Shown piece after piece: positions 2,262 through 57,341 of a stretch of DNA of 64,000 nt (the first letter of the stretch is position 1; each line of letters opens with the position of its first letter). The translations under genes were made by a program, and so were the position numbers. The notes below the pieces were generated by a model. The model was given only the letters and a program-made list of their open reading frames with translations. It was not told the origin of the DNA and ran no database searches. The DNA is taken from contig NC_058339.1 of NCBI RefSeq assembly GCF_905475395.1, positions 93,816,520 to 93,880,519 of the forward strand. Direction: 5' to 3'. This DNA comes from Chrysoperla carnea. Taxonomy: Eukaryota > Arthropoda > Insecta > Neuroptera > Chrysopidae.

Positions 2262-5200
2262 ATGCCTATCAGTGAGGATGAATACGATCATCAAACACGT
2301 CATCATCAAACTAATCCACAAAATCCATCGGGAATGTCTAAAGCTGAATTACGACGTGTGAGTACCCGGTAGGAACTATGTTCCTATCGTATATTCGTAT
2401 ATAATAAATGTAGCGCTTAAGTTTTTTATTCTTTTGCTTTGATTTTTTAATATAGTTCCAAAAATAGTTTTGCATTGTTGCACAAGTTTTAGTGCAACAA
2501 TCAATATTGTTGGTAGTTTAATGGATTATATGTTACGAAAATTTATTTCTTGAATATTTTCATGTGACACTTCTTGGACAGTCTAAAATGATGTTTTAGT
2601 AAAGTTAAAAATCGATAAGTTAATTTACTAAGCGATCTTCAGATATGATATCTTAATGACTAAATGCCCTTGATAAATGACTTATTTCCAAGTCTTATTT
2701 CTAAACGGTGCGGATAAGAAATTAAATTAGACCCGCTGCTACTTTTAAATTAGACCATGCTTGTTTACAAAGCGCCTGTCATGAGAATAAGACATAAGAC
2801 ATACGAAACGAAACGAAAACTATAATTCAAGATTGTGGACTGTTAAAAAGCTATCTTTAAACTGCCAACAATCGTATGACTTTTAAAGTATCTTGGGAAC
2901 AAACCATAAGCGTTCCAAAAACCATAACTCATAATTTGTGGACCGTCAAAAATCTTACATTTTTGGTATAACTGTTTGGCAAGATATTTTAAAAGTTATT
3001 TGTAAATAGAAATAGATATTGCGATTTGTTAAATAATCGTAATAAAATGGATGATTTTTATTATTTTGCAGAGTAATAAACCAATTATGGAAAAACGTAG
3101 GCGTGCCCGAATCAATCATTGTTTGAACGAATTAAAAACATTAATATTGGATGCAATGAAAAAAGACGTAAGTATCTAAACGATTAAATTATAAATTGAT
3201 CTATAATATTTTATACATAAAAAATAAAATTAAATATCTTTTATAATTTACCGATTCTTTTATGCTCTTTTAATATTTTTTTGCGGTTTTCAAAAGATTT
3301 TGTTTTGTTGTAAATCTTTTTAAATACCTTCAACAAGTACCACAATGGTATATACAGTGTGTCCACGAATAGAGGTTGATTCCGAAACCAACGAGCTATT
3401 ATTCGCATATATTTTTAAAAGCATTATCTCGTATTTTTCACCACTTTCAACTTTTCGGCTAGAGTGAAACTAACATAAACCATATTGAAATCTTGCGTAT
3501 TTGTTTTCCGTTTTATCGCTAGTTAATTATTTACTTGATGTTATTGGTACAACCATTCGATTGACATACTGTAAAAATTAATATATTTTTTATATTATGA
3601 TAAAATTAAACATAAACAGGGAGCCTGTGACAGTAAAACTGCATTTACACGGACTTCGTAATTTCGATTATGAATCAATTTTATTTAACGACAGATACAA
3701 TATGTAATAGATGTGCCAATGTTTATCCTGGCAGAAAACCTCGACAAACCTAGTTCATATTGTACGTATCATTGACTCATAAGCCAAATTTCTAAATCCA
3801 TGTAAGTGCAGTTTTACTGTGACAGGCTCCAAGACTAACATATAAATATGTTGTTTGTAAAAATAAAAAAATAAAAAACAATCTGATTACTTGTTTCGGC
3901 CACAGTCACCTCTTGAACGATATTCCCACGGTTTGTTCGTCCTCCTCCAACTCTTAAGTACTATTTCATCCATCATGATGCAACAAGGTCATCTCAATTC
4001 ATCTCACTTGTATATATAAATCTATCTTTATTCTCTCATTTCTTAATTCAATTAATTTATTAATAAAACATTAAAATTCATTTAATTACAAAATGTGATT
4101 TTAATTTAGGAAAGAAAAACCACTTCTTGTTTTTAATTAAGGATGTGCGAATGCCAAGCCAATTTTGGATAAAAGGCATGATTGTTTTTTATATACAGTT
4201 GGACTAAGTCTAAATCAATTCTTAAAATTTTAGGTAGGGTTGCCTGATTAGTTAATTAAATAAATTTTCTTCATGATGAAAAACTTTGAACTATTATTTA
4301 CCGCAAAAAAAATGAACTTTCACCGTAATTGCTCAAACAGCCGAACCACTTTAAAATGTTATTTTTATTTTTAGCAACTTTTTTTTTTCTTAAAAAATCG
4401 TAAAAAACACTTGATACAATTTTTTTTACCAAAATATTTATGTTCAGAAATAGAATAACATATGTAACCATAAAGCCATAATATTTATTAAATCTGACCC
4501 TAAATTCACTAGTCTGTTAAATTCCCATTAAATTTGACAAAGGTTCAATTTGATGATGCGTTTAGCAGGTTCAAATTGTTGAAATACATTCTCTATTATT
4601 TATTATTTATTATTGCCAATTTTAAAATCTTTTTTTATGTTTATAAAGAAAAAATAGATTGTTATGTCTTCACAAAAAAAAAAAAAAAAAAAAAAAACTG
4701 TGGCCTACAAACTTAATAAACTTGTGCAGAAAAAAATCATGTGACCTAAATCCTTTCAAAAAAAAATTATTGACATCCTTTTTTTTTATTAAAAAATAAC
4801 CGTGAGAAAGGATTAACAGTATGAAATCCTTTGTTAAATACATGCCTTTATTCAAACTAGGTAAGTGGGTCGTCACACCCACGCACAATGTATGAAATCC
4901 AAATTTTGGCAAACAAAGACCTTACAGAAAAAGTAAATTCACATAATAGAGAAGTTATTAATTTTTTTATCACAAATTCATATATAAATGAAAGAATAAT
5001 TCATCTAAAGTAAACTTAAATAATTTTTTTTTAAATTAATAATTCCATTTTTTTTATTAATTATTAATTTAAAATACTTATATTTTAACAGTAGTGACGT
5101 ATTTACAACCGTTAAGGCTGTGAGTAAATCGGTTTCTATGAAAATTTACGTTGTAATATAGTGAAAACCAGTTGAGAAACAAACCTATTATCATTATTCA

Positions 5201-7834: not shown

Positions 7835-9914
7835 CTACATAGCATCAAAATGAAATCTATGTGATTCCTGTAATCGTTCCTTTCTATCTTCTTGCCGTTC
7901 CTTCCAATACAAGCCCAATATAATTAAGGTAATAATTCCACACAAGCCGGTGAGTCCTGCTACACTCATTAAAATTAATTTACTTGGCGTTACAAATAAT
8001 TGTGCTTTCCATTTCGATGGTTCATCCGTGGGCCACGGGATCACAACCATTTGTGAGTTGGGTATAATTTGAGTCCAGTCACGTGATCGATTCGATAGAC
8101 CCACTGTTAAGGTATCAACAAAATTTGGTGTTCGACCCAAGCCAAATATTGTGAATGGTAGATTTAATGAAAAGTGAGCGGATTGTGGCAATTGAGCTGA
8201 AACGGCCCGACGTAATTTCGCTTCTTGTCGAAATTTTATTGAAATACGTGGACCGGGTAAATTTGTTCCTGAAAAATTGGGAAATTTTTTATAGTTTTTT
8301 AAATTTTAATGCAAGGTTTACGAAATTCTGCAGGTGATTAGATTTAGTATGTTCGAAACGAGACTAGACTGCTAGGACAATGACGAATCTGATAATAAAT
8401 ATTTTGGACTTACCATAAGTTCGTTTCTTTTTACCCAAATTTCCCACAATCATATGATTATTGCTGTTGGTGAGGCCAGTCAGGACCATAACTTTAATAA
8501 ATGTGGCATCATAATCCAAATTATTACGGAATGCACTAATTTTGTAGGGTGACGTTGGTGATGTCATACTTTTTTGGACAAAAATCAAATCCAAAATACC
8601 ATCTTGATAAAAATCATAGAAGACAGCCATCACCGTGTTGTTATTGAACGGGCGTAATGCTTTCCAACGAATCACATACGTACGATTCAAACTTCCACAA
8701 CCGGTTTCACAGTGGACATTCTCCAGGAAAAAACTTTGCGGTGCTCCATTTGGATTGGGTTTCAAAGTGGCTAAAAAATATGGTAAGAATTCAGTTTAAT
8801 CACTTTTCTTTAAAAAGAGCACCTCAAAATCTATAAAATCACTCATTTTCAAAACTCCCGGAAAACTTTCCAGGTAACCTCTTTTTTTTTGAACCAAATG
8901 AGTCTTTTTTAAGAAAAATCGAATAGTTTTACCTAAAATATCGGGATAACCATCCATATTAAAATCGCCACTACGTAACGTAATCACATTCGTATATAAT
9001 TGGCCATCTTTTCCATTCGGATCAACAAATCCCCAAACACGATTATCCGTATCCTTAAAATCAATATTCAAATCTTGCCACGTATCCTTCTTGTACACTA
9101 AAATCGTTGAATTCTCACAACCTTTATCGTAACAAACGGGCGTTATTAAATCCATTTGTCCGATTAACTCCACATCGATAAAAATCGATTGTCCAATATG
9201 ATAACCAGGCGGTTTTGGTATAATCGTATTATTAAATATAAATTCACGATCAATTTCACTCCCGTACCAAATTTCAAAATGATCTTTTGTTGTTAAAAAT
9301 AAATCCGCTGTGTAATCCGCGTTCACATCCAGAAATGCATTCGAATGTGGATAACGTATTGCGGGCGCATCACTACTAACATTCATTAACAGTTCTCGTG
9401 GTGCGGTTCGATTCGTTCCAAATATCCAGAAAGCACGTTTTTTATCTTTATTCACACCAAATAAATCGATGATCATGTCTTGATTGTAATCGATCGCTAA
9501 CGGTTGTCCAATCATTTCGATTAGTGGTGTTTCGGTTGTACAACTTAAATTATTTAAAGCACCCCACAACACGTACGCAAATGTTTTACGATTCTTTGTA
9601 TCGAATGTTGTCACTAGAACGTCCATAAACGCATCACCATCAAAATCACCTGGTACTACACTTGTCACATTGTTCGCGAATGTACATTGCATGTTGATTC
9701 CAGGTCGTAGCAGTGGTTCTTCTTCCGCTGCAAGTAAGATTTGAACGGTTCGTGTACCATCTCGTAGAACAAACACATCCGTTAATTCGTCCGAATTAAA
9801 ATCACCAAATGCTGCTGGTAAACCATCCGTTATTGAACCAAATACTAAATTTGTTATATCATTTGCCAAACATTTCGTAATAATTATGGATAATATTAAA
9901 AATTTTTGTAACAT
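7835..9914 (-). CDS. ITFG1/TIP-like FG-GAP repeat membrane protein
   Basis: Three exons read on the minus strand: 9914-8933, 8770-8414 and 8268-7835. Both introns are short (162 and 145 bp) with GT-AG ends and phases that match, giving about 590 residues; the human homologue is about 612. Residues 1-17 look like a signal peptide (MLQKFLILSIIITKCLA). FG-GAP/VCBS-type calcium-loop repeats follow, for example FGDFNSDELTDVF, PGDFDGDAFMDVL, DVNADYTADLF and GDFNMDGYPDIL. A single C-terminal membrane helix near residues 545-567 (LMSVAGLTGLCGIITLIIL) is followed by a basic cytoplasmic tail. This architecture is that of T-cell immunomodulatory protein / linkin, a cell-surface adhesion protein. It is convergent with deadpan. 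The start was chosen because it gives the signal peptide. Confidence 0.92.
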
Positions 9915-10494
9915 TTTTGGGACTGTTTTGCTCTAAAAACCAAAGAATAAGAATTTTATTTAGCGAAGTTTTTATTAAGAACTTACCCACTAACTTTTAC
10001 ATGCTATAAGTTCCAAAAGTATACTTGTTCTTTTATCTAATATTTAATATTTAATAATTTAGTTTTGATAAGGTTAAATATTAGTCATACCAAAATTCTT
10101 TGTATTTTTTTGACATTTGTATTTGTCAATAATATTTACTTCGATTCCTTTCCTACATTTGTAGTTTGATATGCTTTTACTAGATGTCAGTCTAACCTTG
10201 GTTTGTGTCTTAGAAGTCTTTAAGCAAAATATTTTTAAATGCAAACATTTAATTAAATAATAATTTAATAATTGGATCAATTGTGGAATCTGAAGGAGAA
10301 TTTTATTAATATTCCACGCTAACTTAAGTAAAGAATACAGATACATACTAAAAAGCCTACTCCAGAGGATTATGCATTGATTTGTTACATTCACTGATAG
10401 ATGACTCTACTAAGCTCTATTTTTTATTAATAAACTAAGCTCTGTTTTTCTATTTATTGTTCCAGCATAGACGTGTTTTTTAATTATTTATTTA
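9915..10494. repeat. Spacer with an orphan foldback terminus (10231-10326)
   Basis: No gene seen. From about 10231 to 10326 the sequence matches the right-hand end of the foldback family at 10495-21592 (ATTTAATAATTGGA, GGAATCTGA, TTAATATTCCACGCTAACT). It lacks an internal block of about 45 bp and the last bases of the terminus. It is a broken, stand-alone end lying just 170 bp from the intact element. Confidence 0.7.
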
Positions 10495-10625
10495 CCACAA
10501 TATAGTTAGCGTGGAATATTAACAAAATTTATTAAATCATATATCAAAAAATTGCTCTCTAAATGCTCCATCAGATTCCAAAATTGCTCCAGTTATTAAA
10601 TTATCAATTAATTAAATATTTGCAA

Positions 10626-10922
10626 TTAAAAATACAAAATTTTATTTTCCAATATCTCAGTAAATTGATAGTTTTTCCTAACGTTTTTGCTATCAATAAA
10701 TTGCTCCCGTTTATTTCTTTCGGGATATAACAATAACGATCTATAAATATCAATTATTTTTGCATAATTAATTAAAATTAATAATTGCAATTCAAACAGG
10801 TATGTGATGACGTCATTCACAAGGGGAATGTCATAAACTAAGGGGAGCGGGAAGAGAAAGAAAAACAAAAAAGAAATAATAATAGAAAGTAAATAATTAG
10901 ATGTATCAGTGAAAAATATCAA
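10626..10922 (-). other. 98-codon open frame in foldback arms (uncertain)
   Basis: A 98-codon frame of the same length occurs in all four arms in this window: here, 21165-21461, 53404-53700 (minus) and 56444-56740 (plus). It starts MIFFTDTSNYLL, has a hydrophobic N-terminal half and a charged C-terminal half (ERNKREQFIDS). The copies in the two elements differ at three residues, all non-synonymous, which does not argue for protein selection. No family recognised; it may simply be an open stretch in a conserved repeat. Confidence 0.25.
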
Positions 10923-12290
10923 AAAATTGCTCCGTAAATACTCTTTCAGATTCCAAAGTTGCTCCAGTTATATAATTAATATGTAATTAAATATTTTCAA
11001 TTAAAAATACAAAATTTTATATACACAAAGGGGTTGGGGGGGAAGCATGAACATATATAACAATAGATTGTAGTTATTATCTATGGTTATGATATTTGTT
11101 TTATTTAATTAAATATTAAAAGAAAATAAACAATCATATGTATCAGCGGAAAGTATCAAAAAATTGCTCCGTAAATACTCTTTCAGATTCCAAAGTTGCT
11201 CCAGTTATATAATTAATATGTAATTAAATATTTTCAATTAAAAATACAAAAATTTACATACACAAAGAGGTTGGGGGGGAAACATGAAAATATATAACAA
11301 TAGATTGTAGTTATTATCTATGGTTATGATATTTGTTTTATTTAATTAAATATTAAAAGAAAATAAACAATCATATGTATCAGCGGAAAGTATCAAAAAA
11401 TTGCTCCGTAAATACTCTTTCAGATTCCAAAGTTGCTCCAGTTATATGATTAATATGTAATTAAATATTTTACATTAAAAATACAAAATTTAACATACAC
11501 AAGGGGAATGGGGGGAAACATGAAAATATATTACGATAGATTGTAGTTATTATCTATGGTTATGGTATTTGTTTTATTTAATTAAATATTAAAAGAAAAT
11601 AAACAATCATATGTATCAGCGGAAAGTATCAAAAAATTGCTCCGTAAATACTCTTTCAGATTCCAAAGTTGCTCCAGTTATATGATTAATATGTAATTAA
11701 ATATTTTACATTAAAAATACAAAATTTTACACACACAAGGGGAATGGGGGGAAACATGAAAATATATTACGATAGATTGTAGTTATTATCTATGGTTATG
11801 ATATTTGTTTTATTTAATTAAATATTAAAAGAAAATAAACAATCATATGTATCAGCGGAAAGTATCAAAAAATTGCTCCGTAAATACTCTTTCAGATTCC
11901 AAAGTTGCTCCAGTTATATGATTAATATGTAATTAAATATTTTACATTAAAAATACAAAATTTTACATACACAAGGGGAATGGGGGGAAACATGAAAATA
12001 TATTACGATAGATTGTAGTTATTATCTATGGTTATGGTATTTGTTTTATTTAATTAAATATTAAAAGAAAATAAACAATCATATGTATCAGCTGAAAGTA
12101 TCAAAAAATTGCTCCGTAAATACTCTTTCAGATTCCAAAGTTGCTCCAGTTATATAATTAATATGCAATTAAATATTTTCAATTAAAAATACAAAATTTT
12201 ACATAAACAAGGGGAATGGAGGGAAGCATGAAAATATATAACGATGGATTGTAGTTATTATCTATGGCTGTGATATTTGTTTATTTAATT
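10917..12290. repeat. Tandem repeat, about six 236-bp units, left arm
   Basis: Units begin at TATCAAAAAATTGCTCC at 10917, 11154, 11391, 11627, 11863 and 12099, so the period is 236-237 bp. Each has AGATTCCAAAGTTGCTCC, a short G-run (GGGGTTGGGG or GGGGAATGGGG) and TAGATTGTAGTTATTATC. The mirror array is at about 19797-21170. Subterminal arrays of this kind usually hold transposase-binding sites in foldback elements. Confidence 0.92.
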
Positions 12291-12783
12291 CTTTTTGAGG
12301 TTAATTATATCATTTTTATTCGCCGTTGTATTTTCATTAAAACATTTTTAATTTAAATAATGTTTCAATAAGTTACTTGAAGAATAATTATTTATTGTTA
12401 TTATATTTTTATGGTTGTAAAAGGTGAGTCGACAAACCTTTATTTGTTTACATAAATTATCGATGTCTTAGGTTATTTGTTTATAAACTTTTATTTTGTT
12501 TATATATAATAATATTGTTGAATTTTCAGTTTTCAGATAAAAATATTGGCAAGCAGTTGGACTAAAATTATATTTCTAAAAAGAGATCAATCATCGAGAT
12601 GATATTGAATCCGGACAATTCCCATAACTCGCCGATGTACCTATTAACCCGAATGTTGAATGGAAACCTATGAAAATATCTGACCAAGGCATTGTAATTA
12701 CTAATTTCTCATGTTTTCTATCATTAGTATGTTTTATTGCGTTGAATTAGTTTTAATTTTTATTATTATTACTTTTTTCAGTT

Positions 12784-12873
12784 ATGAAAATACTGATTCG
12801 TCAAAACACTTACGGAATAGCTGACCGAGCACGCGATACTAAAATCGACAAAGTTGTTGCCTTGAAAAAGTAA
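12784..12873 (+). pseudogene. Captured CDK10-like kinase exon, left arm
   Basis: After an intron-like ...TTTTTTCAG acceptor, the frame reads TYGIADRARDTK then DKVVALKK and a stop. This matches the glycine-loop-to-catalytic-lysine segment of CDK10 kinases (family pattern GTYGIVYRARDTK..VALKKV). After a one-base shift the downstream codons still give VKMEHNK, like the VRME.EK that follows in the family. Upstream lie a consensus donor (GTGAGT at 12424) and another acceptor near 12530, so at least one more exon may have been taken along. The glycine loop is altered and the frame is closed, so this is a dead host fragment carried by the transposon, as in Pack-MULEs. Confidence 0.8.
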
Positions 12874-13546
12874 AAATGGAACATAATAAAAATTATAACC
12901 GATGAGCAAAGAAATTCCAGTCGTTCTACTTCATAAAGACAAAATTGATAATATATAATTTTAATTGTACACATACGTATTTTTATGGATTTTCAATGTT
13001 TTATTAAATAAATTAAAGGTGGAAATGATATTATATAAATCTATTGAAAATAAATTATTTTTATTTTAGTAAATTATTTATATACATATTAAGTGCAAAC
13101 AAATAAACATATTATTAATAAACAAACATATTGCACATATTATTTACATTTTACATTACACTTTACATTAAATTTTACATTTTGGTCCGCTCAAAATAAT
13201 AATAATGCTTTTGCGTGAACTTATTCAAAGTCTCGGAAGTGCCAGGCTTGAGATAATTAACGCAATATATACATAAAAAACGATTTTTGGCCAATATTTC
13301 AATAACCAACTGGATGAAAAAAAGGTTCAAACAAATATTGTCGAAAAGTTTTTTTCCTAAGAAAAATGTAGAATAAAAAATTGTGATATCTCAAGTCATT
13401 TTCCCGAAAATAGAGAAAAACGGCCAAATATATATATATTTATATGCTACTTAACAATATCTTGAAACTGATTGATTTTATAACAAATAAAAATGTTGAG
13501 TGAACATTTTTGATATCTTTAACCGTTTTCAAAACGATCAATTATA

Positions 13547-14030
13547 CAGTGTGATCAAATTGGAGGTATTTTTTCCAGTAGAGTGATATTGACATGTTAC
13601 GCGTGACTAATGTCAAACTAAATACTTACTATTAACTATTATATATAAATACTAACTAAATAACTATTATTCAGTTTTCATTGACATTTCATCATGGAAA
13701 GACTTACGCCTCAACAACGTTTACAAATCGTGCAATTATATTGAAAAGTGTTTATCGAGCGTTCAGGCCAATTTATGGTGTACATTATCGTCCTACCGAA
13801 CTATAGAGAATATTGCTGCTGTAAATGAGAGTTTTGCCTTAGACCCAGAAGAATCGATTCGGCGACGATCTCAACAACTTGGCCTATCTTATGGCACTAC
13901 TAGGGCGATTTTACGCAAAGATCTGTGTTTGAAAGTGTTAAAATACAGCTAGTTCAAGAATTGAAGCCGGCCGATCTTTCAAAGCGTCATAATTTCAGTC
14001 GTTGGGCTCTTAAAAACTCGCAAAAATTTA
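13547..14030 (+). mobile_element. Decayed mariner inside the foldback element
   Basis: Begins with a TA followed by CAGTGTGATCAAATTGG, a mariner-like end. An ATG at 13694 opens MERLTPQQRLQIVQLY. Further mariner blocks follow in shifted frames: RPTE, NIAAVNESF, IRRRSQQLGLSYGTTRAILRKDL and VQLVQELKPADLSKRH. There are stops and frameshifts and the whole C-terminal catalytic half is missing. It lies in the unique centre, just inside the left arm, and has no mirror copy, so it is probably a nested insertion. Confidence 0.8.
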
Positions 14031-14158
14031 TCTAAATCATACTTTTTAACTTTTATTTGTGGGGTATGTAAAGTCTAAAAATGTGAATCTAAAATTAAAT
14101 AATAATAATAAAATTAAATGTTTTGAAAGTATCTAAAAATTTTTTTAAGGAATTCTAT

Positions 14159-17100
14159 TTAAACTAAAACATATAAGAGAGTAGCTATTCTTACACTGGG
14201 TAATTGAGTTCGTAAAATCCTTGGCGATGGTTCCAAATCATTGATTTGTACCCATCTATCATTTATGGTATGGGTGTATGCAATATAATGCCCCAAACCG
14301 TTAGGTACTATGGACGGACTGAACTCAATTACGCCAGATAAAATATATGTTTTATTCCCTAAACTTAATTTTTTAGGGATTTCGTTTAAATTGCTTTTCA
14401 ATAACGGCTCTTTGTTATTTAGAGAAAAAAAAATCGATTTTTCGTAAAAATGATTTACGTCCAAACATAAGTAAGAGGAAAGCGTTACTGTTCGTCCCAC
14501 CATTTGTCGTACTTGACAGTTTTTACAATAAAAACTTGTTTTTTCGATCTCATTTAGGATACTTCTTTCTAAAGTATCGAAGCCATAATTCCAAATTAAT
14601 GTGGCATTCACATTTAAAATAGACAGTCTCCTTTGTTCAAATAATCCGCAATCTGAGCAATGGCTTTCTTCGTTTATTGACTCATGGCCAAGCATAAGCC
14701 CCTCAAACAGCCTTGAAATATCTTCTCGGCAGTCAATGCGATTATTTACTTCCGGGTACATAGTGCGTAAAATTTTGAGTCTTTTTTCGTAAAACTTAAA
14801 ATTCGCGCCATTTTCTGCATACAAACATACTGTTGAAAAATATTCTGATTCGCTAATTTTAAGTTTTACGAAATCTCTAAAGTTTTTAAAATTTAGATAT
14901 GTGAATGCCATGACTTCTGTCAAGCTGTCAAATGGACACGTGTTTATAAGAAATAGTTTAAGTTTATTTATTTTGCACGGAGGAAAAGTGCTGCCGTTTT
15001 TTATTATGTTGTGCTGTTTCTTCTTTTTTTTGTAAACTTGTGAATTTTGATTATCAGCGTTTCCATGTAAAATCTGCACATCTGGACATGCAGTAACATA
15101 CTTTCCTCTTTTTATTGGCGGACCCATAGTTGGCGATGAAGAATTATTTACATTTTTTTTATTACATGAGAGGGGTATCGCTAATAGGTCCGTAGAACCT
15201 AGACCAAGGTCTTCTTTGTGCCCAGGTTTTTTATTTAATATTATTGAAAAATTATTTTCAGAGTTTTTATGTAGGGAAATTTCTCTAAAATCATATTCTT
15301 TTGAATCTTGAATTAAATTAAGATTTGTGGTAGTTTGTTTTTTGCCTGGGTCTTGATTGGGCTTATTGCCAGCATGGGTATCTTTTGGCGTGGAAAAGAA
15401 TTTAGGTCTTTCAAAACAATTCTTACTTACATCTATAGAATCTTCTTCGGCAGTAAAATTCATTTTAACAGATTCGTCAGCAATTACCTTATTCTTCCAA
15501 TTTTCAATATAATTAAGCACACTCTGGTCTTTATTCTTATCAATGATAGAATTTTTTATAATTATTTTTGTATTGTTATAAGCACTTCTGGCTTCTATCA
15601 TTCTCGATTTTAGAGTTTTAGTGTGCTCAACTATAAATGAATCAGCTCGTAATGGTTGACGATCTGTTAAAACAATATCTTTAATATATTTAAAATAATT
15701 TTCTGACCGTGAAGAAGTTGCTACCAGATGTTCGGAGTTATAATTCCTCCTCATTACATTTGTCCATGCCGGAAATTTTTTAAATAACAATTCCAGATTT
15801 TTTTTAATCTCAGGCAAATAGTAAGGATTTGTATCGTTAAAATTAATGGAAACATTTGAGTTTTCACTTCGCGCTTGATGGAAAAGATCTTCTATATACC
15901 TAGATAAATCTTCATTATTTAGCTCATCAACATTTATCATGTCATGGCAACGAGATAAATGTTTTTCATCAGATACATCAACATTTATCTCGTTGTCATG
16001 ACATGATAAATGTTTTTCACAATTATTGTTATGATTGCATGTATTCATAATTTTCACTTCATTATAATTTATTGTAGTATCGTCAAATTCAAATGTTTCT
16101 ATTTTTTTTAACATCCACTTGATGTCATCCTTACAACCTATTTCATTTTGACTAATATTTATTAGAGCTTTCATTGTTTTTTCGACATCTTTTAAAGCTT
16201 CTAAATTGCTCATAAAACCAATGGCTCTAAGATAAAAATCTTTTATGGGGAAATTTTTATTGATAAAGCATTTGAGCCTGGATACCCAATGAATAAGATG
16301 GGCAATGTCGATACGTAAATATGGTGGATTTAAATTTACGGATTTACCGCTTAAAGCCTGGTAACATCGCGATAAATATTCTTTGTAACTGATATGATTA
16401 GTAGCCAAACAAATAGCATTTTGTAAGGCTTTTGACATATCAGTTACAACTTCTAAAGGTATCTTCGCCTTAGAAGAAAGCCATTCGGTTAACCAAAACT
16501 CAATTATTTTTGTATCGTGTCGTTCGGACAACATTTGGCAAACCGGGACTATTAGAGAGCCAATATATGTTACGATCTGATACAAAAATATTGGGCCACA
16601 ATAATAATTTCCCTCAGACGTAATCTTTCGAACGATGCTCCCTGTTGCATCTATTGATACAATAGGATTTAAATTTAAAATATCATTATATACATCCGTT
16701 TGTTCAGGTGTCCAATACATAACAAAAAATTTGTCAAAACCAATTTGTTTAATCACTGGACTGAGCTCAACATTATTTCTTTTTAAATTTCTAAGGGAAT
16801 ACCATAAGTCTCCCTCTATACCAAGTCGTTTTTTTTTCCCTTCATGGCGGATTTGGTTTAGAGTACTTACCGATGGAATAATAGGAGCTATTTGTTGACC
16901 GTATTCATTAAATTTTTCTATCAGCTTCCTATTGAAAACTTCACTTTTCATGAACTCCATAGCCTTCCCATATTGATCTCTCAGCTCACCAGACACATGC
17001 CTTTTCTTTGTATGGTAAACTTGTTTAGTATCTAATGTGTATATTTTCATTGATACATTGCTATCAGCAAAAGAAAATGTACACTCGCCATAAATAGCGG

Positions 17101-17761
17101 CTTTACATAATTTGTCAGCACAAGCACCATTAATTTTAATAATAAAAATATCTTTATCAGCACTGTCTAATTTATAAATATTGCGATTTTTAAAGTTAAA
17201 CGCACATGGTAACTTCTGCTGCACATAAATTAATTCGGAGAGAATGTGTGTCCACCCTTTACGCAGAGCATAATATTGTTTCTGTTGTTTCTTATCATAT
17301 TTCAATATTGGTTTTATTTTTAACCACTGTTCATCGTTAAATAACACATTAAAATTAATTAGTTTTTTTTTATCAAATTTAGGATTATTTTGCGGATGAA
17401 TCGTAAAATCACAATCGTTGATGTCACTATTTTCCATAAATTCATCCATCACTAACAGATCTTCATTTTCAGATGAATTAGTATCATTTTTTTCAATTTT
17501 ATCTGAAAAATGTAGATTCCGTGCTTCAAGGTAAGATGTTTTGATGCTATGTCTATTTTGAAAAATATCAAAATACAAAGCAACAGGTGTCTTAAGATAT
17601 TCCCCAGATTTCTGTTTCCAAATTTGACAAATTTCCTTCCAAATAGGATTTGATTTTGGTTTTAATTTTCCTTTTTCAAGAAAAATATCGAATTGAACAA
17701 TTCGATTTAAAACTTCAGTTATGGAAACAGCGGCCCAATTCGTCATTTTTGCTATAATCAA
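14159..17761 (-). CDS. MULE/NOF-like transposase with C-terminal ubiquitin-protease-like domain
   Basis: One uninterrupted 1200-codon frame. A MULE-type DDE core is suggested by FVMYWTPEQ then SIDATGSIV (about residue 369, first Asp) and EVVTDMSKALQNA (about 441, second Asp); the third acidic residue is not certain. A Cys/His-rich stretch (about 590-640) has two similar EKHLS.CHD..NVD blocks. From about residue 935 the protein resembles a C19 ubiquitin-specific protease. It has a Cys box NTCPFDSL (about 941), paired CxxC motifs CSDCG (about 1035) and CKNC (about 1082), and a His box GLGHYIAYTHT..RWVQINDLEP (about 1155). It would cut and join transposon ends in the nucleus; the protease part could trim ubiquitin or a like modifier. 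The frame is minus, between the two arms. The first Met is taken by default; the second (MTNWAAV) is also possible. Fold assignments are from motifs only. Confidence 0.8.
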   Translation of the reverse strand: MIIAKMTNWAAVSITEVLNRIVQFDIFLEKGKLKPKSNPIWKEICQIWKQKSGEYLKTPVALYFDIFQNRHSIKTSYLEARNLHFSDKIEKNDTNSSENEDLLVMDEFMENSDINDCDFTIHPQNNPKFDKKKLINFNVLFNDEQWLKIKPILKYDKKQQKQYYALRKGWTHILSELIYVQQKLPCAFNFKNRNIYKLDSADKDIFIIKINGACADKLCKAAIYGECTFSFADSNVSMKIYTLDTKQVYHTKKRHVSGELRDQYGKAMEFMKSEVFNRKLIEKFNEYGQQIAPIIPSVSTLNQIRHEGKKKRLGIEGDLWYSLRNLKRNNVELSPVIKQIGFDKFFVMYWTPEQTDVYNDILNLNPIVSIDATGSIVRKITSEGNYYCGPIFLYQIVTYIGSLIVPVCQMLSERHDTKIIEFWLTEWLSSKAKIPLEVVTDMSKALQNAICLATNHISYKEYLSRCYQALSGKSVNLNPPYLRIDIAHLIHWVSRLKCFINKNFPIKDFYLRAIGFMSNLEALKDVEKTMKALINISQNEIGCKDDIKWMLKKIETFEFDDTTINYNEVKIMNTCNHNNNCEKHLSCHDNEINVDVSDEKHLSRCHDMINVDELNNEDLSRYIEDLFHQARSENSNVSINFNDTNPYYLPEIKKNLELLFKKFPAWTNVMRRNYNSEHLVATSSRSENYFKYIKDIVLTDRQPLRADSFIVEHTKTLKSRMIEARSAYNNTKIIIKNSIIDKNKDQSVLNYIENWKNKVIADESVKMNFTAEEDSIDVSKNCFERPKFFSTPKDTHAGNKPNQDPGKKQTTTNLNLIQDSKEYDFREISLHKNSENNFSIILNKKPGHKEDLGLGSTDLLAIPLSCNKKNVNNSSSPTMGPPIKRGKYVTACPDVQILHGNADNQNSQVYKKKKKQHNIIKNGSTFPPCKINKLKLFLINTCPFDSLTEVMAFTYLNFKNFRDFVKLKISESEYFSTVCLYAENGANFKFYEKRLKILRTMYPEVNNRIDCREDISRLFEGLMLGHESINEESHCSDCGLFEQRRLSILNVNATLIWNYGFDTLERSILNEIEKTSFYCKNCQVRQMVGRTVTLSSYLCLDVNHFYEKSIFFSLNNKEPLLKSNLNEIPKKLSLGNKTYILSGVIEFSPSIVPNGLGHYIAYTHTINDRWVQINDLEPSPRILRTQLPSVRIATLLYVLV
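15941..16002. repeat. Inverted repeat within the transposase frame
   Basis: GTCATGGCAACGAGATAAAT is followed about 20 bp later by its near-complement ATTTATCTCGTTGTCATGAC. It encodes part of the duplicated EKHLS/CHD peptide blocks, so a small hairpin-forming duplication shaped this segment. Confidence 0.7.
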
Positions 17762-17981
17762 TTAAGTTTATTGAATTCATGAATTAGAAAATAATAACAT
17801 ATTTAATTCCATACTTACATTATAATTATATAGATAATAATTAAAACAAAAGTTTCACTAATTATATCGCACCTCGATTGGAGTCAAAAGCGTAAATAAA
17901 ACAAATAATTAACTTCTTTAAGAAATTTATTTATCCAAATTAAATAAGAATCAGATTGCAAACATACATCAATCAATAAAT

Positions 17982-18104
17982 AATTGTTAACTTTTCCAAG
18001 AATTTTAAAATGCCGATCACAAAAATTTACACTTTTAGACTAAAGTGTAAGCCGCTATTTTAGTGACCGTTTGATTTTGAAATTCTTGGAAAAAGTTAAC
18101 AATT
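17982..18104. repeat. Hairpin repeat, 123 bp
   Basis: AATTGTTAACTTTTCCAAGA at one end and its near-complement TCTTGGAAAAAGTTAACAATT (last bases trimmed in the match) at the other, with GACTAAAGTGTA-type bases at the tip. It lies between the transposase start and the right arm. Probably a small MITE; no superfamily assigned. The rest of 17762-18610 shows nothing else recognisable apart from the likely transposase promoter. Confidence 0.6.
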
Positions 18105-18610
18105 AAATGATGACAATTAATCAATAGGGCAAGATAATTTTTATGAAAAATTATGAAGGATAATTTTTTATGAAAAAAAAAAAAACAATTTTAGAATTTT
18201 TCGCATAAAATATTTATTTATAACATTTGTTTCGAGATCACATTCTCTTCTTCATTACAATATTACCCAATCAATACAAAAGTTATAATTTATTAGTGAA
18301 GATTTTTTAAAACTGAGAAATATACAAATATCACATATTTATTTTATCGTTGATGAAAATTAAGTAGTCTTTTGCTGCGTATAGGATAGTAAGTAAAGGA
18401 TATGCTGACTTTACCATACACGCGCGCTTAACCCTAGAAGTTGCGCCAATCTAATTTTGCTGAAAAATCATTCAATTTGAGAAAAAGCCATTGGATCTTA
18501 TATTTTGGACTATTATAAGGATCTAATCTATTTTTTTTTCTCAAAATAACAATCAGCCGTTACTGAAAAGTAATTTGAGTGATATCCCTGAAAAATTAAA
18601 TTTAGTGAAT

Positions 18611-21592
18611 ATCAATCAGTTTCAAGATATTGTTAAGTAGCATATAAATATATATATATTTGGCCGTTTTTCTCTATTTTCGGGAAAATGACTTGAGATA
18701 TCACAATTTTTTATTCTACATTTTTCTTAGGAAAAAAACTTTTCGACAATATTTGTTTGAACCTTTTTTTCATCCAGTTGGTTATTGAAATATTGGCCAA
18801 AAATCGTTTTTTATGTATATATTGCGTTAATTATCTCAAGCCTGGCACTTCCGAGACTTTGAATAAGTTCACGCAAAAGCATTATTATTATTTTGAGCGG
18901 ACCAAAATGTAAAATTTAATGTAAAGTGTAATGTAAAATGTAAATAATATGTGCAATATGTTTGTTTATTAATAATATGTTTATTTGTTTGCACTTAATA
19001 TGTATATAAATAATTTACTAAAATAAAAATAATTTATTTTCAATAGATTTATATAATATCATTTCCACCTTTAATTTATTTAATAAAACATTGAAAATCC
19101 ATAAAAATACGTATGTGTACAATTAAAATTATATATTATCAATTTTGTCTTTATGAAGTAGAACGACTGGAATTTCTTTGCTCATCGGTTATAATTTTTA
19201 TTATGTTCCATTTTTACTTTTTCAAGGCAACAACTTTGTCGATTTTAGTATCGCGTGCTCGGTCAGCTATTCCGTAAGTGTTTTGACGAATCAGTATTTT
19301 CATAACTGAAAAAAGTAATAATAATAAAAATTAAAACTAATTCAACGCAATAAAACATACTAATGATAGAAAACATGAGAAATTAGTAATTACAATGCCT
19401 TGGTCAGATATTTTCATAGGTTTCCATTCAACATTCGGGTTAATAGGTACATCGGCGAGTTATGGGAATTGTCCGGATTCAATATCATCTCGATGATTGA
19501 TCTCTTTTTAGAAATATAATTTTAGTCCAACTGCTTGCCAATATTTTTATCTGAAAACTGAAAATTCAACAATATTATTATATATAAACAAAATAAAAGT
19601 TTATAAACAAATAACCTAAGACATCGATAATTTATGTAAACAAATAAAGGTTTGTCGACTCACCTTTTACAACCATAAAAATATAATAACAATAAATAAT
19701 TATTCTTCAAGTAACTTATTGAAACATTATTTAAATTAAAAATGTTTTAATGAAAATACAACGGCGAATAAAAATGATATAATTAACCTCAAAAAGAATT
19801 AAATAAACAAATATCACAGCCATAGATAATAACTACAATCCATCGTTATATATTTTCATGCTTCCCTCCATTCCCCTTGTTTATGTAAAATTTTGTATTT
19901 TTAATTGAAAATATTTAATTGCATATTAATTATATAACTGGAGCAACTTTGGAATCTGAAAGAGTATTTACGGAGCAATTTTTTGATACTTTCAGCTGAT
20001 ACATATGATTGTTTATTTTCTTTTAATATTTAATTAAATAAAACAAATACCATAACCATAGATAATAACTACAATCTATCGTAATATATTTTCATGTTTC
20101 CCCCCATTCCCCTTGTGTATGTAAAATTTTGTATTTTTAATGTAAAATATTTAATTACATATTAATCATATAACTGGAGCAACTTTGGAATCTGAAAGAG
20201 TATTTACGGAGCAATTTTTTGATACTTTCCGCTGATACATATGATTGTTTATTTTCTTTTAATATTTAATTAAATAAAACAAATATCATAACCATAGATA
20301 ATAACTACAATCTATCGTAATATATTTTCATGTTTCCCCCCATTCCCCTTGTGTGTGTAAAATTTTGTATTTTTAATGTAAAATATTTAATTACATATTA
20401 ATCATATAACTGGAGCAACTTTGGAATCTGAAAGAGTATTTACGGAGCAATTTTTTGATACTTTCCGCTGATACATATGATTGTTTATTTTCTTTTAATA
20501 TTTAATTAAATAAAACAAATACCATAACCATAGATAATAACTACAATCTATCGTAATATATTTTCATGTTTCCCCCCATTCCCCTTGTGTATGTTAAATT
20601 TTGTATTTTTAATGTAAAATATTTAATTACATATTAATCATATAACTGGAGCAACTTTGGAATCTGAAAGAGTATTTACGGAGCAATTTTTTGATACTTT
20701 CCGCTGATACATATGATTGTTTATTTTCTTTTAATATTTAATTAAATAAAACAAATATCATAACCATAGATAATAACTACAATCTATTGTTATATATTTT
20801 CATGTTTCCCCCCCAACCTCTTTGTGTATGTAAATTTTTGTATTTTTAATTGAAAATATTTAATTACATATTAATTATATAACTGGAGCAACTTTGGAAT
20901 CTGAAAGAGTATTTACGGAGCAATTTTTTGATACTTTCCGCTGATACATATGATTGTTTATTTTCTTTTAATATTTAATTAAATAAAACAAATATCATAA
21001 CCATAGATAATAACTACAATCTATTGTTATATATGTTCATGCTTCCCCCCCAACCCCTTTGTGTATATAAAATTTTGTATTTTTAATTGAAAATATTTAA
21101 TTACATATTAATTATATAACTGGAGCAACTTTGGAATCTGAAAGAGTATTTACGGAGCAATTTTTTGATATTTTTCACTGATACATCTAATTATTTACTT
21201 TCTATTATTATTTCTTTTTTGTTTTTCTTTCTCTTCCCGCTCCCCTTAGTTTATGACATTCCCCTTGTGAATGACGTCATCACATACCTGTTTGAATTGC
21301 AATTATTAATTTTAATTAATTATGCAAAAATAATTGATATTTATAGATCGTTATTGTTATATCCCGAAAGAAATAAACGGGAGCAATTTATTGATAGCAA
21401 AAACGTTAGGAAAAACTATCAATTTACTGAGATATTGGAAAATAAAATTTTGTATTTTTAATTGCAAATATTTAATTAATTGATAATTTAATAACTGGAG
21501 CAATTTTGGAATCTGATGGAGCATTTAGAGAGCAATTTTTTGATATATGATTTAATAAATTTTGTTAATATTCCACGCTAACTATATTGTGG
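18611..21592. repeat. Right inverted arm of the foldback element
   Basis: Complement of 10495-13476 with the same unit order reversed; six tandem units lie at about 19797-21170. The arms looked identical at the landmarks checked, which suggests recent insertion or continuing gene conversion between them. Confidence 0.9.
19214..19303 (-). pseudogene. Captured CDK10-like kinase exon, right arm
   Basis: Mirror copy of 12784-12873 on the opposite strand with the same codons (TYGIADRARDTK, VALKK). Because the two copies face each other across the element, a read-through transcript could form double-stranded RNA over the kinase-derived sequence. Confidence 0.8.
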
Positions 21593-21664
21593 TCCTTAAA
21601 TGCGCAAGTTAAACGCGACTTTTATTTCAACTGAACATTGATAGATGGTGTACAAACTGGCAAA

Positions 21665-22556: not shown

Positions 22557-22788
22557 CAAGACACTTTAATATTCAAGATAAGAACCTTATTATATAAAAT
22601 AATAATGAGATCTATTTTGACGATTATATTAATTTAGTTCGCATTGATATTCAGAGATGGCATTAAATGACATGCGATAAAAATTAGCTTTGACTTTCGC
22701 TTCTGTTTTACTGACATATTCTTTGGTTGTAAGTTCATTTTATCTGAACATATTTAATTGCAAGTTTTAAATTATAAAATTCAGTAAA
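22557..22788 (+). promoter_or_regulatory. Conserved ZNF upstream region
   Basis: The block AAGATAAGAACCTTATTATA..GAGATGGCATTAAATG..CATGCGATAAAAATTAGC is shared with 26700-26934 and, more diverged, with about 42015-42190. Its retention at three places suggests a promoter, but the start site is not defined. Confidence 0.45.
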
Positions 22789-23523
22789 ATGGCAAATAAT
22801 TCATTTAAAGATGAAATTGATCCTTTATTGAGAAACGAAGAAAACAACATTAAACGTAAACAAGACGTAAATAAACAAATACTGAACGAAAATGTTAAAA
22901 TGGAAGAAAGTGGTTTAGTGACACAAGTTTTAATTAAAGAAGAAATAGATCTGGAAAATGGTATAAATCAAGAAAATGTGAATTTGACGCAAGTGTGGAT
23001 CAAGGAGGAAAAATTAGAAGAAAGTGACTCAATGGAACATGAGCATGATCAAAAAAATAAAAAATTTGCATGTGATTTTTGTAATAAAACCTTCAATCGA
23101 CGAAGCCATTTTATTGTACACAAACGAATTCACACGGGAGAAAAACCATTTTTATGTGAAATTTGTGGTAAATCGTTTTCACAGTCGCAACCTTTAATTG
23201 CCCACAATCTAATTCACACGGGTGAAGAACCATTCTCTTGTGAAATTTGTGATAAAAAATTCCGTCATCAAAATAATTTAATCGTTCACAAACGAACTCA
23301 CACGGGAGAAAAACCATTTTCATGTGATGTTTGTGATAAAAATTTTACTCAGCAAAGTGTTTTAAATACACATAAAAGGATTCATACAGGTGAAAAACCA
23401 TTTTCCTGTGAAATTTGTGATAAAAAATTTACCCGCCAAAATACTTTAAAACAACACAAACGAATTCACTCGGGGGAAACCCCTTATTTAAGTGATATGT
23501 GTGAAAAAACATTTTCATGTTAG
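22789..23523 (+). CDS. C2H2 zinc-finger protein A, truncated form
   Basis: 244 residues starting [14 protein letters not shown], nearly identical over about 70 residues to the intact paralogue at 26935. An acidic N-terminal part contains VLIKEE and VWIKEE. Five complete C2H2 fingers follow (about residues 94-232; C-x2-C-x12-H-x3-H with TGEKP linkers). A damaged sixth finger (YLSDMC, first Cys replaced by Ser) fuses directly into FSC and a TAG stop at 23521. Downstream, the same frame stays open for 270 codons with more fingers, so the stop and the fused finger are secondary. A five-finger product could still be made. Nuclear DNA-binding role expected from the family; targets unknown. Confidence 0.5.
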
Positions 23524-24336
23524 GTTTGTGATAAATCCTTTACTCAGTCTCAAGGCTTAATTCAGCATAAAAGAATTCATAGCGGTGAGAAACCATTTTC
23601 TTGTATTATTTGTGAACGAAAATTTTGTTGGAAAAGTAGTTTATTTGTACATAAACGATCTCATATTAAAGAAAAATCATTTCAAATTAAAAAATTTTCG
23701 TGCGATTTTTGTAAAAAGGCATTCAGTCGACGAAGTAATTTAAGAAGACATGAAAGAAATCACGCGAGAGAAAGAAAGGAAATTCTTGAAGGCGAAAATG
23801 TACAAATTAAAGAAGAAATCAATTTGGAGCAAGTTGTAATTAAAGAGGAAATATTAGAAGAAAATGGTCCAATGGAAGATGAAACCCAGAAATTAGAAGA
23901 TAAAACTCATTCAAAATCTGAAAAAAACAAACCAAAATGTCCGTTTTGTAATAAAATCTTCAGCCAACGAAGTAATTTAATTGTACATCAACGCACTCAT
24001 ACCGGAGGAAAACCATTTTCATGTGTAGTTTGTGGTAAAACGTTTTCTCAGTCTCATGGTTTAATTGAACATAAACGAATTCATACTGGTGAAAAACCAT
24101 TTTCCTGTGAATTGTGTGATAAATCATTTAATCGACGAAGTATTTTAATTGCCCACAAACGAACTCATACTGAAGAACAACCATTTTCATGTGAAATTTG
24201 TGGGAAAAAATTTAGGCAACTAAGTGGTTTATTTAAACATAAAAGGAGGATTCACATCAAGGGTGATTTTGCTAATGAAAATGTTGCAGAAGAAAATGTT
24301 CGAATTAAAGAGGAAATAAATTTTGATCAAGTATGA
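23524..24336 (+). pseudogene. 3' part of ZNF A, separated by a stop codon
   Basis: In frame with the preceding truncated gene. After the TAG it encodes three more fingers (VCDKSF.., FSCIICERKF.., FSCDFCKKAF..) and an acidic spacer with QIKEE and VVIKEE. Four fingers follow (CPFCNKIF.., FSCVVCGKTF.., FSCELCDKSF.., FSCEICGKKF..), then a terminal RIKEEINFDQV and a stop. Without the interruption the gene would have about 13 fingers in two modules. It could be expressed from an internal Met (23824), but no separate promoter is visible; a pseudogene segment is the simplest reading. The TAG context gives no known read-through signal. Confidence 0.6.
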
Positions 24337-52514: not shown

Positions 52515-53272
52515 ACTTAATTTAGTAAATATACTCAACTCATGCCATCATTGTGGAATTTATTATTTAAATAAACATTTATTAACAGTAACATGATACG
52601 TCCACATGAGATTTTTAGGTTAGGTTACAATTTTTTGTATTAAAATTTATAAAAAACCAAACATTTTAAAATTGTAAGAAATTATGTATTCGTTAAACGC
52701 TAATTTATAATGAAATATACTCATTTCATGATTGGATATCTTTTTAAAATTCAATAATGTACACATTTAATAACAATAATCTAATATTTCCATATGAGTT
52801 TATTAAGTTAAAAATTCAATAAATAATAATTTGAATAGGTATGTACTTACATTATCGCCAGCATATTACACATGCATTTTTGTTTCACTCGCTTTACTTT
52901 CGCATCACCATTTTTATTTATTAAATATTTTAATAATTCACAAATAATAAATTTAAATGTATCTAATATATACAAAAATTATTTTGTAAATAAACATAAT
53001 GACACTATGACAGTAGACAAAACTATTTATAGTCGATAACATAGAGTACAACATATATTTTTTCTTTGTTTTTGTTTAAATCAGCGCTACAGGTAGCTTG
53101 AGATGAACTAAATTTGTCTAAAAAGTTCCCATCAAAGACTATAGGATAGACAAGAAGCAGAAGTATAATTATAAGTGACATCTGGAGTCTGAGGCGATCA
53201 ACTATTAAGTTTGTAGGCCTTTGCGGGTATGACTATTAAGTTTGACTACTTTGCGGGGGTGACTATTAACTA
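52515..53272. other. Spacer, no gene seen
   Basis: AT-rich. A short tandem motif (GACTATTAAGTTT and TTTGCGGGGGT types) lies at about 53200-53268, right at the edge of the next foldback copy. Confidence 0.4.
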
Positions 53273-56200
53273 CCACAATATAGTTAGCGTGGAATATTAA
53301 TAAAATTTATTAAATCATATATCAAAAAATTGCTCTCTAAATGCTCCATCAGATTCCAAAATTGCTCCAATTATTAAATTATCAATTAATTAAATATTTG
53401 CAATTAAAAATACAAAATTTTATTTTCCAATATCTCAGTAAATTGATAGTTTTTCCTAACGTTTTTGCTATCAATAAATTGCTCCCGTTTATTTCTTTCG
53501 GGATATAACAATAACGATTTATAAATATCTATTATTTTTGCATAATTAATTAAAATTAATAATTGCAATTCAAACAGGTATGTGATGACGTCATTCACAA
53601 GGGGAATGTCATAAACTGGGGGGAGCGGGAAGGGAAAGAAAAACAAAAAAGAAATAATAATAGAAAGTAAATAATTAGATGTATCAGTGAAAAATATCAA
53701 AAAATTGCTCCGTAAATACTCTTTCAGATTCCAAAGTTGCTCCAGTCATATAATTAATATGTAATTAAATATTTTCAATTAAAAATACAAAATTTTACAT
53801 ACCCAAAGGGGATGGGGGGAAGCATGAAAATATATAACAATAGATTGTAGTTATTATCTATGGTAATGGTATTTGTTTTATTTAATTAAATATTAAAAGA
53901 AAATAAACAATCATATGTATCAGCGGAAAGTATCAAAAAATTGCTCCGTAAATACTCTTTCAGATTCCAAAGTTGCTCCACTTATATAATTAATATGTAA
54001 TTAAATATTTTTAATTAAAAATACAAAATTTTACATACACAAGAGGAATGGGGGGAAACATGAACATATATTACGATAGATTGTAGTTATTATCTATGGT
54101 TATGATATTTGTTTTATTTAATTAAATATTAAAAGAAAATAAACAATCATATGTATCAGCGGAAAGTATCAAAAAATTGCTCCGTAAATACTCTTTCAGA
54201 TTCCAAAGTTGCTCCAGTTATATAATTAATATGTAATTAAATATTTTCAATTAAAAATACAAAATTTTACATACACAAGGGGAATGGGGGGAAACATGAA
54301 CATACATTACGATAGATTGTAGTTATTATCTATGGTTATGATATTTGTTTTATTTAATTAAATATTAAAAGAAAATAAATAATCATATGTATCAGCGGAA
54401 AGTATCAAAAAATTGCTCCGTAAATACTCTTTCAGATTCCAAAGTTGCTCCAGTTATATAATTAATATGTAATTGAATATTTTTAATTAAAAATACAAAA
54501 TTTTACATACACAAGGGGAATGGGGGGAAACATGAAAATATATAACAATAGATTGTAGTTATGATCTATGGTTATGGTATTTGTTTTATTTAATTAAATA
54601 TTAAAATGACTTGAGATATCACAATTTTTTATTCTACATTTTTCTTAGGAAAAAAAATTTTCGACAATTTTTGTTTGAACCTTTTTTTCATCCAGTTGGT
54701 TGTTGAAATATTGGCCAAAAATCGTTTTTTATGTATATATAGCGTTAATTATTTCAACTTTGGCACTTCCGAGACTTTGAATAAGTTCTCGCAAAAGCAT
54801 TATTATTATTTTGAGCGAACCAAAATGTAAAAAAATATAAAATGTAATTAATATGTGCAATATGTTTGTTTATTAATAATATGTTTATTTGTTTTCACTT
54901 AATATGTACATAAATAATTTACTTCTAAAATAAAAATAATTTATTTTCAATAGATTTATATAATATTATTTCCACCTTTAATTTATTTGATAAAACATTG
55001 AAAATCCATAAAAAGTGCTCGGACAGCTATTCCGTAAGTGTTTTGACGAATCAGTATTTTCATAACTGAAAAAAGTAATAATATTAAAAATTAAAACTAA
55101 TTCTACGCAATAAAACATACTAATGATAGAAAACATGAGAAATTAGTAATTACAATGCCTTGGTCAGATATTTCCATAGGTTTCCATTCAACATTCGGGT
55201 TAATAGGTACATCGGCGAGTTATAGGAATTGTCCGGATTCAATATCATCTCGATGATTGATCTCTTTTAAGAAATATAATTTAAGTCCAACTGCTTGCCA
55301 ATATTTGTATCTGAAAACTGAAAATTCAACAATATTATTATATATAAATAAAATAAAAGTTTATAAACAAATAACCTAAGACGTCGATAATTTATGTAAA
55401 CAAATAAAGGTTTGTCGACTCACCTTTTACAACCATCTTTACAATAAATAATTATTCTTCAAGTAACTTATTGAAACATTATTTAAATTAAAAATGTTTT
55501 AATGAAAATACAACGGCGAATAAAAATGATATAATTAACCTCAAAAAAAAATTAAATAAACAAATATCACAGCCATAGATAATAACTACAATCCATCGTT
55601 ATATATTTTCATGTTTCCCTCCATTCCCCTTGTGTATGTAAAATTTTGTATTTTTAATTGAAAATATTTAATTACATATTAATTATATAACTGGAGCAAC
55701 TTTAGAATCTGAAAGAGTATTTACGGAGCAATTTTTTGATACTTTCCGCTGATACATATGATTGTTTATTTTCTTTTAATATTTAATTAAATAAAACAAA
55801 TATCCTAACCATAGATAATAACTACAATCTATCGTAATATATGTTCATGTTTCCCCCCATTCCCCTTGTGTATGTAAAATTTTGTATTTTTAATTAAAAA
55901 TATTTAATTACATATTAATTATATAACTGGAGCAACTTTGGAATCTGAAAGAGTATTTACGGAGCAATTTTTTGATACTTTCCGCTGATACATATGATTG
56001 TTTATTTTCTTTTAATATTTAATTAAATAAAACAAATATCATAACCATAGATAATAACTACAATCTATCGTAATATATGTTCATGTTTCCCCCCATTCCC
56101 CTTGTGTATGTAAAATTTTGTATTTTTAATTGAAAATATTTAATTACATATTAATTATATAAGTGGAACAACTTTGGAATCTGAAAGAGTATTTACGGAG

Positions 56201-56871
56201 CAATTTTTTGATACTTTCCGCTGATACATATGATTGTTTATTTTCTTTTAATATTTAATTAAACAAAACAAATACCATTACCATAGATAATAACTACAAT
56301 CTATTGTTATATATTTTCATGCTTCCCCCCATCCCCTTTGGGTATGTAAAATTTTGTATTTTTAATTGAAAATATTTAATTACATATGAATTATATGACT
56401 GGAGCAACTTTGGAATCTGAAAGAGTATTTACGGAGCAATTTTTTGATATTTTTCACTGATACATCTAATTATTTACTTTCTATTATTATTTCTTTTTTG
56501 TTTTTCTTTCCCTTCCCGCTCCCCCCAGTTTATGACATTCCCCTTGTGAATGACGTCATCACATACCTGTTTGAATTGCAATTATTAATTTTAATTAATT
56601 ATGCAAAAATAATAGATATTTATAAATCGTTATTGTTATATCCCGAAAGAAATAAACGGGAGCAATTTATTGATAGCAAAAACGTTAGGAAAAACTATCA
56701 ATTTACTGAGATATTGGAAAATAAAATTTTGTATTTTTAATTGCAAATATTTAATTAATTGATAATTTAATAATTGGAGCAATTTTGGAATCTGATGGAG
56801 CATTTAGAGAGCAATTTTTTGATATATGATTTAATAAATTTTATTAATATTCCACGCTAACTATATTGTGG
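53273..56871. mobile_element. Non-autonomous foldback element, same family
   Basis: 3599 bp with the same CCACAATATAG termini. Matching arms are 53273-54603 and 55541-56871 (1331 bp each), each with a terminal unit and about four 236-bp units (left starts 53695, 53931, 54167, 54403). The loop 54604-55540 equals the inner part of the right arm of the large element, with a deletion near 55013 that removes part of the kinase-derived exon. The transposase and the inner left arm are gone. The 9-bp flanks TATTAACTA and TAATAAATA agree at 7 of 9 positions, a possible aged target duplication. Confidence 0.88.
54604..55540 (-). pseudogene. Foldback loop with remnant of the captured kinase exon
   Basis: Minus strand keeps the ACTGATTCGTCAAAACACTT and GGAATAGCTG part of the exon, then jumps at about 55013, losing the codons for ARDTK..VALKK. 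The upstream captured segment (AACCCGAATGTTGAATGGAA) is retained. Confidence 0.7.
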
Positions 56872-57341
56872 TAATAAATAAATAACCATATAACCATAAA
56901 TAAATATATAATATTTCATTATGAAATAACGTGCCTAAAAATTCAAGGTATAAGCTTGAATATAATTTTTTCTTTAAATAAATTTAATACCTAATAATCA
57001 CCTCACCTGTGTAAAAACTACATTAAACTTTATAAAATAATTAAAGCTAAAAAATAATGAATGTAAAATGTGAATGATATGAAAAAAGTTTTTCAGGTGT
57101 AGGTAAATAATAATAAACAATTTTATTCTTAACCAAAATCATTTAATTCAGTTATATATCAAAACTAAATAAATAAATTCTATAATAAATATTATTAGTA
57201 TTTTTTCTTACCTCTAAATATACGAAAAATTGATATGTATTATATTTTTTCTATAAATTAATTTTGTCAGATACAGTAAAAAGAACCATTCGTTCACCTT
57301 ATTTGTACTAAACATAGGTTTTTTTAGTTTTCCCTTGTTTT

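Follow-up and report, generated by a model that had tools for sequence, protein, structure and literature searches.

The window analysed here, a stretch of 64,000 nucleotides on contig C3 of the 559-Mb Chrysoperla carnea assembly (337 contigs), raises the question of how what looks like a piece of a protein kinase gene came to lie inside the arms of a transposon, and whether it does anything there. The transposon, element A (Table 1), combines long inverted repeats with tandem repeats inside them, the hallmark of foldback elements. A degraded repeat, which we take from its motif to be Tc1/mariner-like, forms the inner edge of the arms of the long elements of this family, and its sequence at 13229-13480 is found at 24 further places in the genome. 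A matching target duplication was looked for at the insertion of element A, and none was found.

Table 1. Features of the window, with positions counted from its first nucleotide.
Feature	Position	Strand	Remark
Foldback-type element A, 11,100 bp (11.1 kb)	10494..21593	.	ends ACCACAATATAG...CTATATTGTGGT
Left arm of element A, 2985 nt	10495..13479	+	paired with the right arm over its length, one mismatch
Right arm of element A	18608..21592	-	from arm pairing
Tandem array in left arm, about six units of 236-237 bp	10874..12290	+	mirrored in right arm
Donor-like GTGAGT after ATGGTTGTAAAAG	12424..12429	+	
Putative upstream CDK10-type exon remnant, PITRR / YLLTRMLNGN / MKISD	12621..12684	+	two frameshifts; weak alone
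Intron-like stretch GTAATT...TTTTTTCAG, 88 nt	12694..12781	+	from reading the sequence
CDK10-type kinase exon remnant, P-loop to VALKK	12788..12893	+	frameshift-aware match extends to 12955
Degraded repeat	13229..13952	+	13229-13479 within left arm
Transposase-like ORF, 1195 aa, intact	14159..17746	-	ATG at 17746
Kinase remnant, right arm copy	19194..19299	-	mirror of left arm
Second, short family element, 3601 bp, one copy of captured region	53272..56872	.	truncated at the counterpart of 12832

The initial annotation had read, within the left arm, a peptide and VALKK matching the region of CDK10 between the P-loop and the lysine, preceded by an intron-like acceptor and an upstream consensus donor. 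All of these are present: the frame runs from an ATG at 12784 through TYGIADRARDTK (12808-12843) and VALKK (12856-12870) to a TAA, the acceptor TTTTTTCAG ends at 12781, and the donor-like AAAG/GTGAGT lies at 12424 (GTGAGT in 10 of 12 rows of aligned copies, GTAAGT in one, missing in L036). Against the whole genome, the 29-aa peptide of this frame gave 20 scored matches, 18 of which we read as copies or fragments of the transposon family and two as real kinase genes, L029 (C5:18618808; 64% over 25 aa) and L030 (C3:58905561; 52%). With 158 bits to CDK11B, L030 is the CDK11 gene. The L029 exon, a protein kinase by Pfam, reaches 95 bits to CDK11B; by exclusion of CDK11, and by motifs that we take to be those of CDK10, L029 is a putative CDK10-type gene, with no CDK10 chain among the best 60 of the 248 matches of its exon in the PDB. 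The 29-aa peptide itself drew four matches from the PDB (phmmer, up to E 10), the top three of them CDK11B at E 0.013-0.021, which serve as a lead only, and a Pfam scan of it was silent. Since the CDK10-type gene is on contig C5 and the window on C3, the parental copy is unlinked to element A.

The L029 exon matches the arm at the nucleotide level. Positions 12788-12893 share 72 of 105 aligned nucleotides with it (68.6%, score 68), against a mean of 27.7 and a maximum of 47 in 2000 dinucleotide shuffles, none of which reached the observed score. The same stretch scored only 34 with the genome's CDK11 gene, placing the piece closer to the CDK10-type gene, whose exon-intron layout it shares, and bearing out the match that had been proposed from the peptide. 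Frameshift-aware alignment of DNA to protein over 12796-12955 gave a score of 98, compared with a maximum of 44 in 300 shuffles (0/300) and of 40 in 486 pieces of the window outside the elements (0/486). Furthermore, of 100 bases aligned between the old copy L032 and the L029 exon, 76 agree, and this match lies further into the exon. When the arm is compared by plain blastn with the 40 kb around the host gene, the kinase stretch, at E 0.003, comes behind an AT-rich chance match at 2e-4, so that this method is insufficient alone to reveal the homology. An identity of 68.6% falls under the cut-offs that Pack-TIR-type surveys apply for young cases. That AT-rich DNA came to resemble a kinase motif by chance is extremely unlikely, for although the peptide is short and Pfam says nothing of it, no shuffle and no genomic piece equalled the two alignments, and the match carries on past the frameshift.

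The homology appears to extend upstream of the kinase exon. In the host gene, the exon preceding the kinase exon ends PITRRGFLTSFKTGKTMNIPDSD and is followed by an intron of 69 nt (boundaries read from the sequence); the intron-like stretch of the arm, at 88 nt, starts 9 rather than 6 nt past the aligned GAC codon, and thus no more than 3 nt from its aligned position in the parental gene. Ahead of it, 12621-12684 aligned to the preceding host exon with a frameshift-aware score of 32, which was reached by 4/300 and 1/300 shuffles, by 14/2000 and 9/2000 in larger shuffle sets, and by 3/486 control pieces. The match is not significant by plain nucleotide alignment (49/1000 shuffles as good, or 197/1000 with the intron included) or with BLOSUM62 without frameshifts (609/2000 and 931/2000). 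A 30-aa peptide from this stretch matched only 17 places, which we read as family copies, and a 25-aa peptide found no match in the PDB. We nevertheless accept the stretch as a probable remnant of the preceding host exon, weak alone but collinear, because strand, order, spacing and the place of the intron all fit and the scores ignore these. The captured stretch would then run from about 12621 to 12955 and hold parts of two host exons with the intervening intron, the upstream exon being statistically the weaker. As the intron lies at nearly the same place in both, genomic DNA rather than mRNA was most likely the source of the capture.

To place the capture within the history of the transposon family, we collected its copies. 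The captured region matched 22 places in the genome, grouped into 16 loci, of which 14 were fetched and two (C5:3916707 and C6:10410829) left out. Four of the 14, the long elements A to D, carry the region in both arms, so the earlier statement that both arms carry it in opposite orientation holds for these, including the mirrored copy in element A, but not for the eight loci with a single copy in the stretch examined (L032, L033, L034, L035, L037, L038, L053 and the second window element). Six of these eight are truncated at the position corresponding to 12832, and in L035 and L053 one end is incomplete; the last two fetched loci are one-sided and broken (L031) or devoid of arms (L036). Perfect 9-bp target-site duplications (TSDs) flank eight of the ten fetched elements with both ends found, to which this tally is limited; they are missing in element A and the second window element. 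L032, at 2186 bp, has the textbook Pack-MULE layout of arm, single captured piece and arm within a perfect TSD, and it shares with the seven other single-copy loci the hallmark of Pack-MULEs and Pack-TIRs, host-derived sequence between two inverted repeats. Inside another arm-bearing locus, L057, neither a kinase piece nor any other clear gene was present.

Aligned family copies are 85-99.9% alike over the captured region (78-86% for L036), with L032 the most diverged of the two-ended copies at 85%. Elements A and B (the latter on contig C1) differ at 38 of 10,719 nt (99.6% identity). A one-base deletion after VALKK is common to all seven loci that retain that stretch (A, B, C, D, L031, L032 and L035), which indicates that decay preceded spread. 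What had been described as a captured host CDK10-like exon is of CDK10-type origin, but it is longer, involving two exons, and because it is old, frameshifted and common to the whole transposon family, it is not a fresh exon capture.

Two of the loci deserve mention on their own account. In L036, the piece without arms (4745-5100) lies about 900 nt upstream of a transposase remnant of 25-33% identity; we considered a capture common to a distant transposase family and rejected it, taking the locus as a broken old copy, since the same contig holds remnants of the present family at distances of 20-54 kb. L037 (C5:18588974-18592235) is a family copy only 26.3 kb from the CDK10-type gene, for which arithmetic after the fact gives a chance of about 0.15%; it was likewise rejected as the site of capture and is not the ancestor, being a truncated derivative that carries its own TSD.

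An intact ORF is present in B as well as in element A; elements C and D are broken. Relatives of this transposase, 1082 and 1107 aa long and 29-34% identical to it, occur in many near-identical open copies (counts that are lower bounds, 39 of 148 candidates having been scored). These related families, for example L056 (C1:7848878-7851991), look recently active, and their C-terminal region is presumably protease-like, judging from its motif. Of the 20 places in the genome that matched the MULE domain PF10551, none lies at the transposase of element A or its listed relatives; a Pfam scan of this transposase and of the 34%-identical relative L056 returned nothing useful, and a scan of viral contigs with the transposase found no relative. 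A single-sequence structure prediction of the transposase core (15347-16759, minus strand) reached a pLDDT of 38.7 and was left unused. The family does show the Mutator-like combination of TSDs in the 8-10-bp range and long inverted repeats, and from TSD and arms, with the PF10551 test negative, we provisionally consider membership in the MULE superfamily likely.

Taken together, the homology, the exon order, the near-identical intron place, the 9-bp TSDs, the many loci and the decay before spread argue that a foldback-type, probably Mutator-like transposon very probably captured genomic DNA of a CDK10-type gene, two exon parts and an intron, from the host lineage. In this respect, the initial annotation's reading of a Pack-MULE-like capture within a foldback element of an animal is upheld by the host gene, the intron place, the TSDs and the layout of L032. 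Capture may have come about when DNA was copied in the course of gap repair or fork switching, after which the inverted repeats would have grown inward over the piece and left the long copies with it in both arms. The simplest order would begin with capture into a short or a long element and continue with decay; the arms would then have extended over the piece, which would have been mobilised together with them by the transposase that long copies such as element A encode.

Given the high divergence, the donor species could differ from the present host. It is conceivable, if rather unlikely, that the element arrived by horizontal transfer with the CDK10 piece already captured in another species: the fragment has a low identity to the resident gene, while the aligned copies of the family are far more alike among themselves, L036 included, and the two long copies A and B differ little. 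However, an ancient capture followed by decay yields the same picture, and the genome holds the old copy L032 as well as decayed copies.

Returning to capture from the host lineage, the second half of the question is whether the piece now serves any purpose. It is unable to encode a kinase and in all likelihood now rides as passive cargo. On balance unlikely is a role of the arm as the 5' leader of the transposase gene, with the captured exons perhaps spliced into its mRNA. On the minus strand of element A, the right arm indeed lies upstream of the transposase ORF and in sense to it, the arms bear splice-like signals, and an acceptor-like ATTATAG stands just before the start of the ORF; such a leader would, however, contain in-frame stops, and since the copies are young, splice-like signals common to them are weak evidence. 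Less likely still is that the captured exons were co-opted as spliced leader or promoter-proximal transposase sequence and retained in both arms for that reason; part of a gene for a cell-cycle kinase of the host would then have become regulatory sequence of a selfish element.

Small RNAs from the hairpin arms directed against the host kinase, which the initial annotation had suggested, find no support. A reading from sequence alone easily suggests a gene-silencing hairpin, the piece lying in opposite orientation in the two arms so that read-through transcripts could form long duplexes. Nonetheless, arm and host exons share no exact word longer than 10 nt on either strand, their best ungapped 21-nt window agrees at 18/21 positions in sense and 16/21 in antisense, and 8 of the 14 loci carry the piece only once. 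Some small-RNA pathways tolerate mismatches, but at this divergence silencing of the host gene is very unlikely.

Gene capture by transposons is known from plants and flies. It is not new in an animal foldback element, since published animal Pack-TIRs include Ssk-FB4 in a Drosophila melanogaster foldback element; the 100-genome animal survey is reported to have found none in insect reference genomes, that polymorphic fly family aside (PMC8277862). A literature search joining CDK10, gene capture and transposon returned no paper with all three. The CDK10 piece is a new case of Pack-TIR-type capture, an old and decayed one. As characterized in the same report, Ssk-FB4 likewise is a host gene piece in a foldback element, probably of Mutator type, that has 9-10-bp TSDs and is multicopy through transposition, but it is young, polymorphic, expressed and nearly a whole gene (PMC8277862), whereas the CDK10 piece is old, partial and frameshifted and, in the long copies, lies within both arms, with an intact transposase ORF alongside. 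With plant Pack-MULEs, as outlined there, the family shares arms around a genomic gene fragment with an intron, and the 9-bp TSD, in L032 (PMC8277862); unlike them it resides in an animal-type host, and its transposase is without a Pfam MULE match. Tetris of Drosophila virilis has comparable long inverted repeats, tandem units of about 220 bp (236 bp here) and 8-10-bp TSDs, and the description of that element reports no transposase ORF and no captured gene (PMC4079207). The Tm1 Mutator/Foldback elements of root-knot nematodes resemble the family in their composite foldback arms, 9-bp TSDs and long and short classes, and differ in their short 13-15-bp arm repeats and gene content, the stem 'captur' being absent from the text of their report (PMC3169594). 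An old multicopy case that combines a host gene, an intron, TSDs, and both single- and double-copy forms allows the steps of capture, decay, spread and arm growth to be put in order.

Within the window, element A and the element at 53272-56872 lie 32 kb apart and are the only ones of the ten that lack a target duplication. We considered an inversion between them as an explanation of the missing TSDs and rejected it, as the flanks, compared by eye, do not fit. To the right of element A, at 22771-24336 on the plus strand, are ORFs that, from their motif, we take to be a C2H2 zinc-finger protein. To its left, at 8796-9932 on the minus strand, lies what is apparently a host gene, an ORF in which Pfam finds FG-GAP repeats (PF13517, PF01839).
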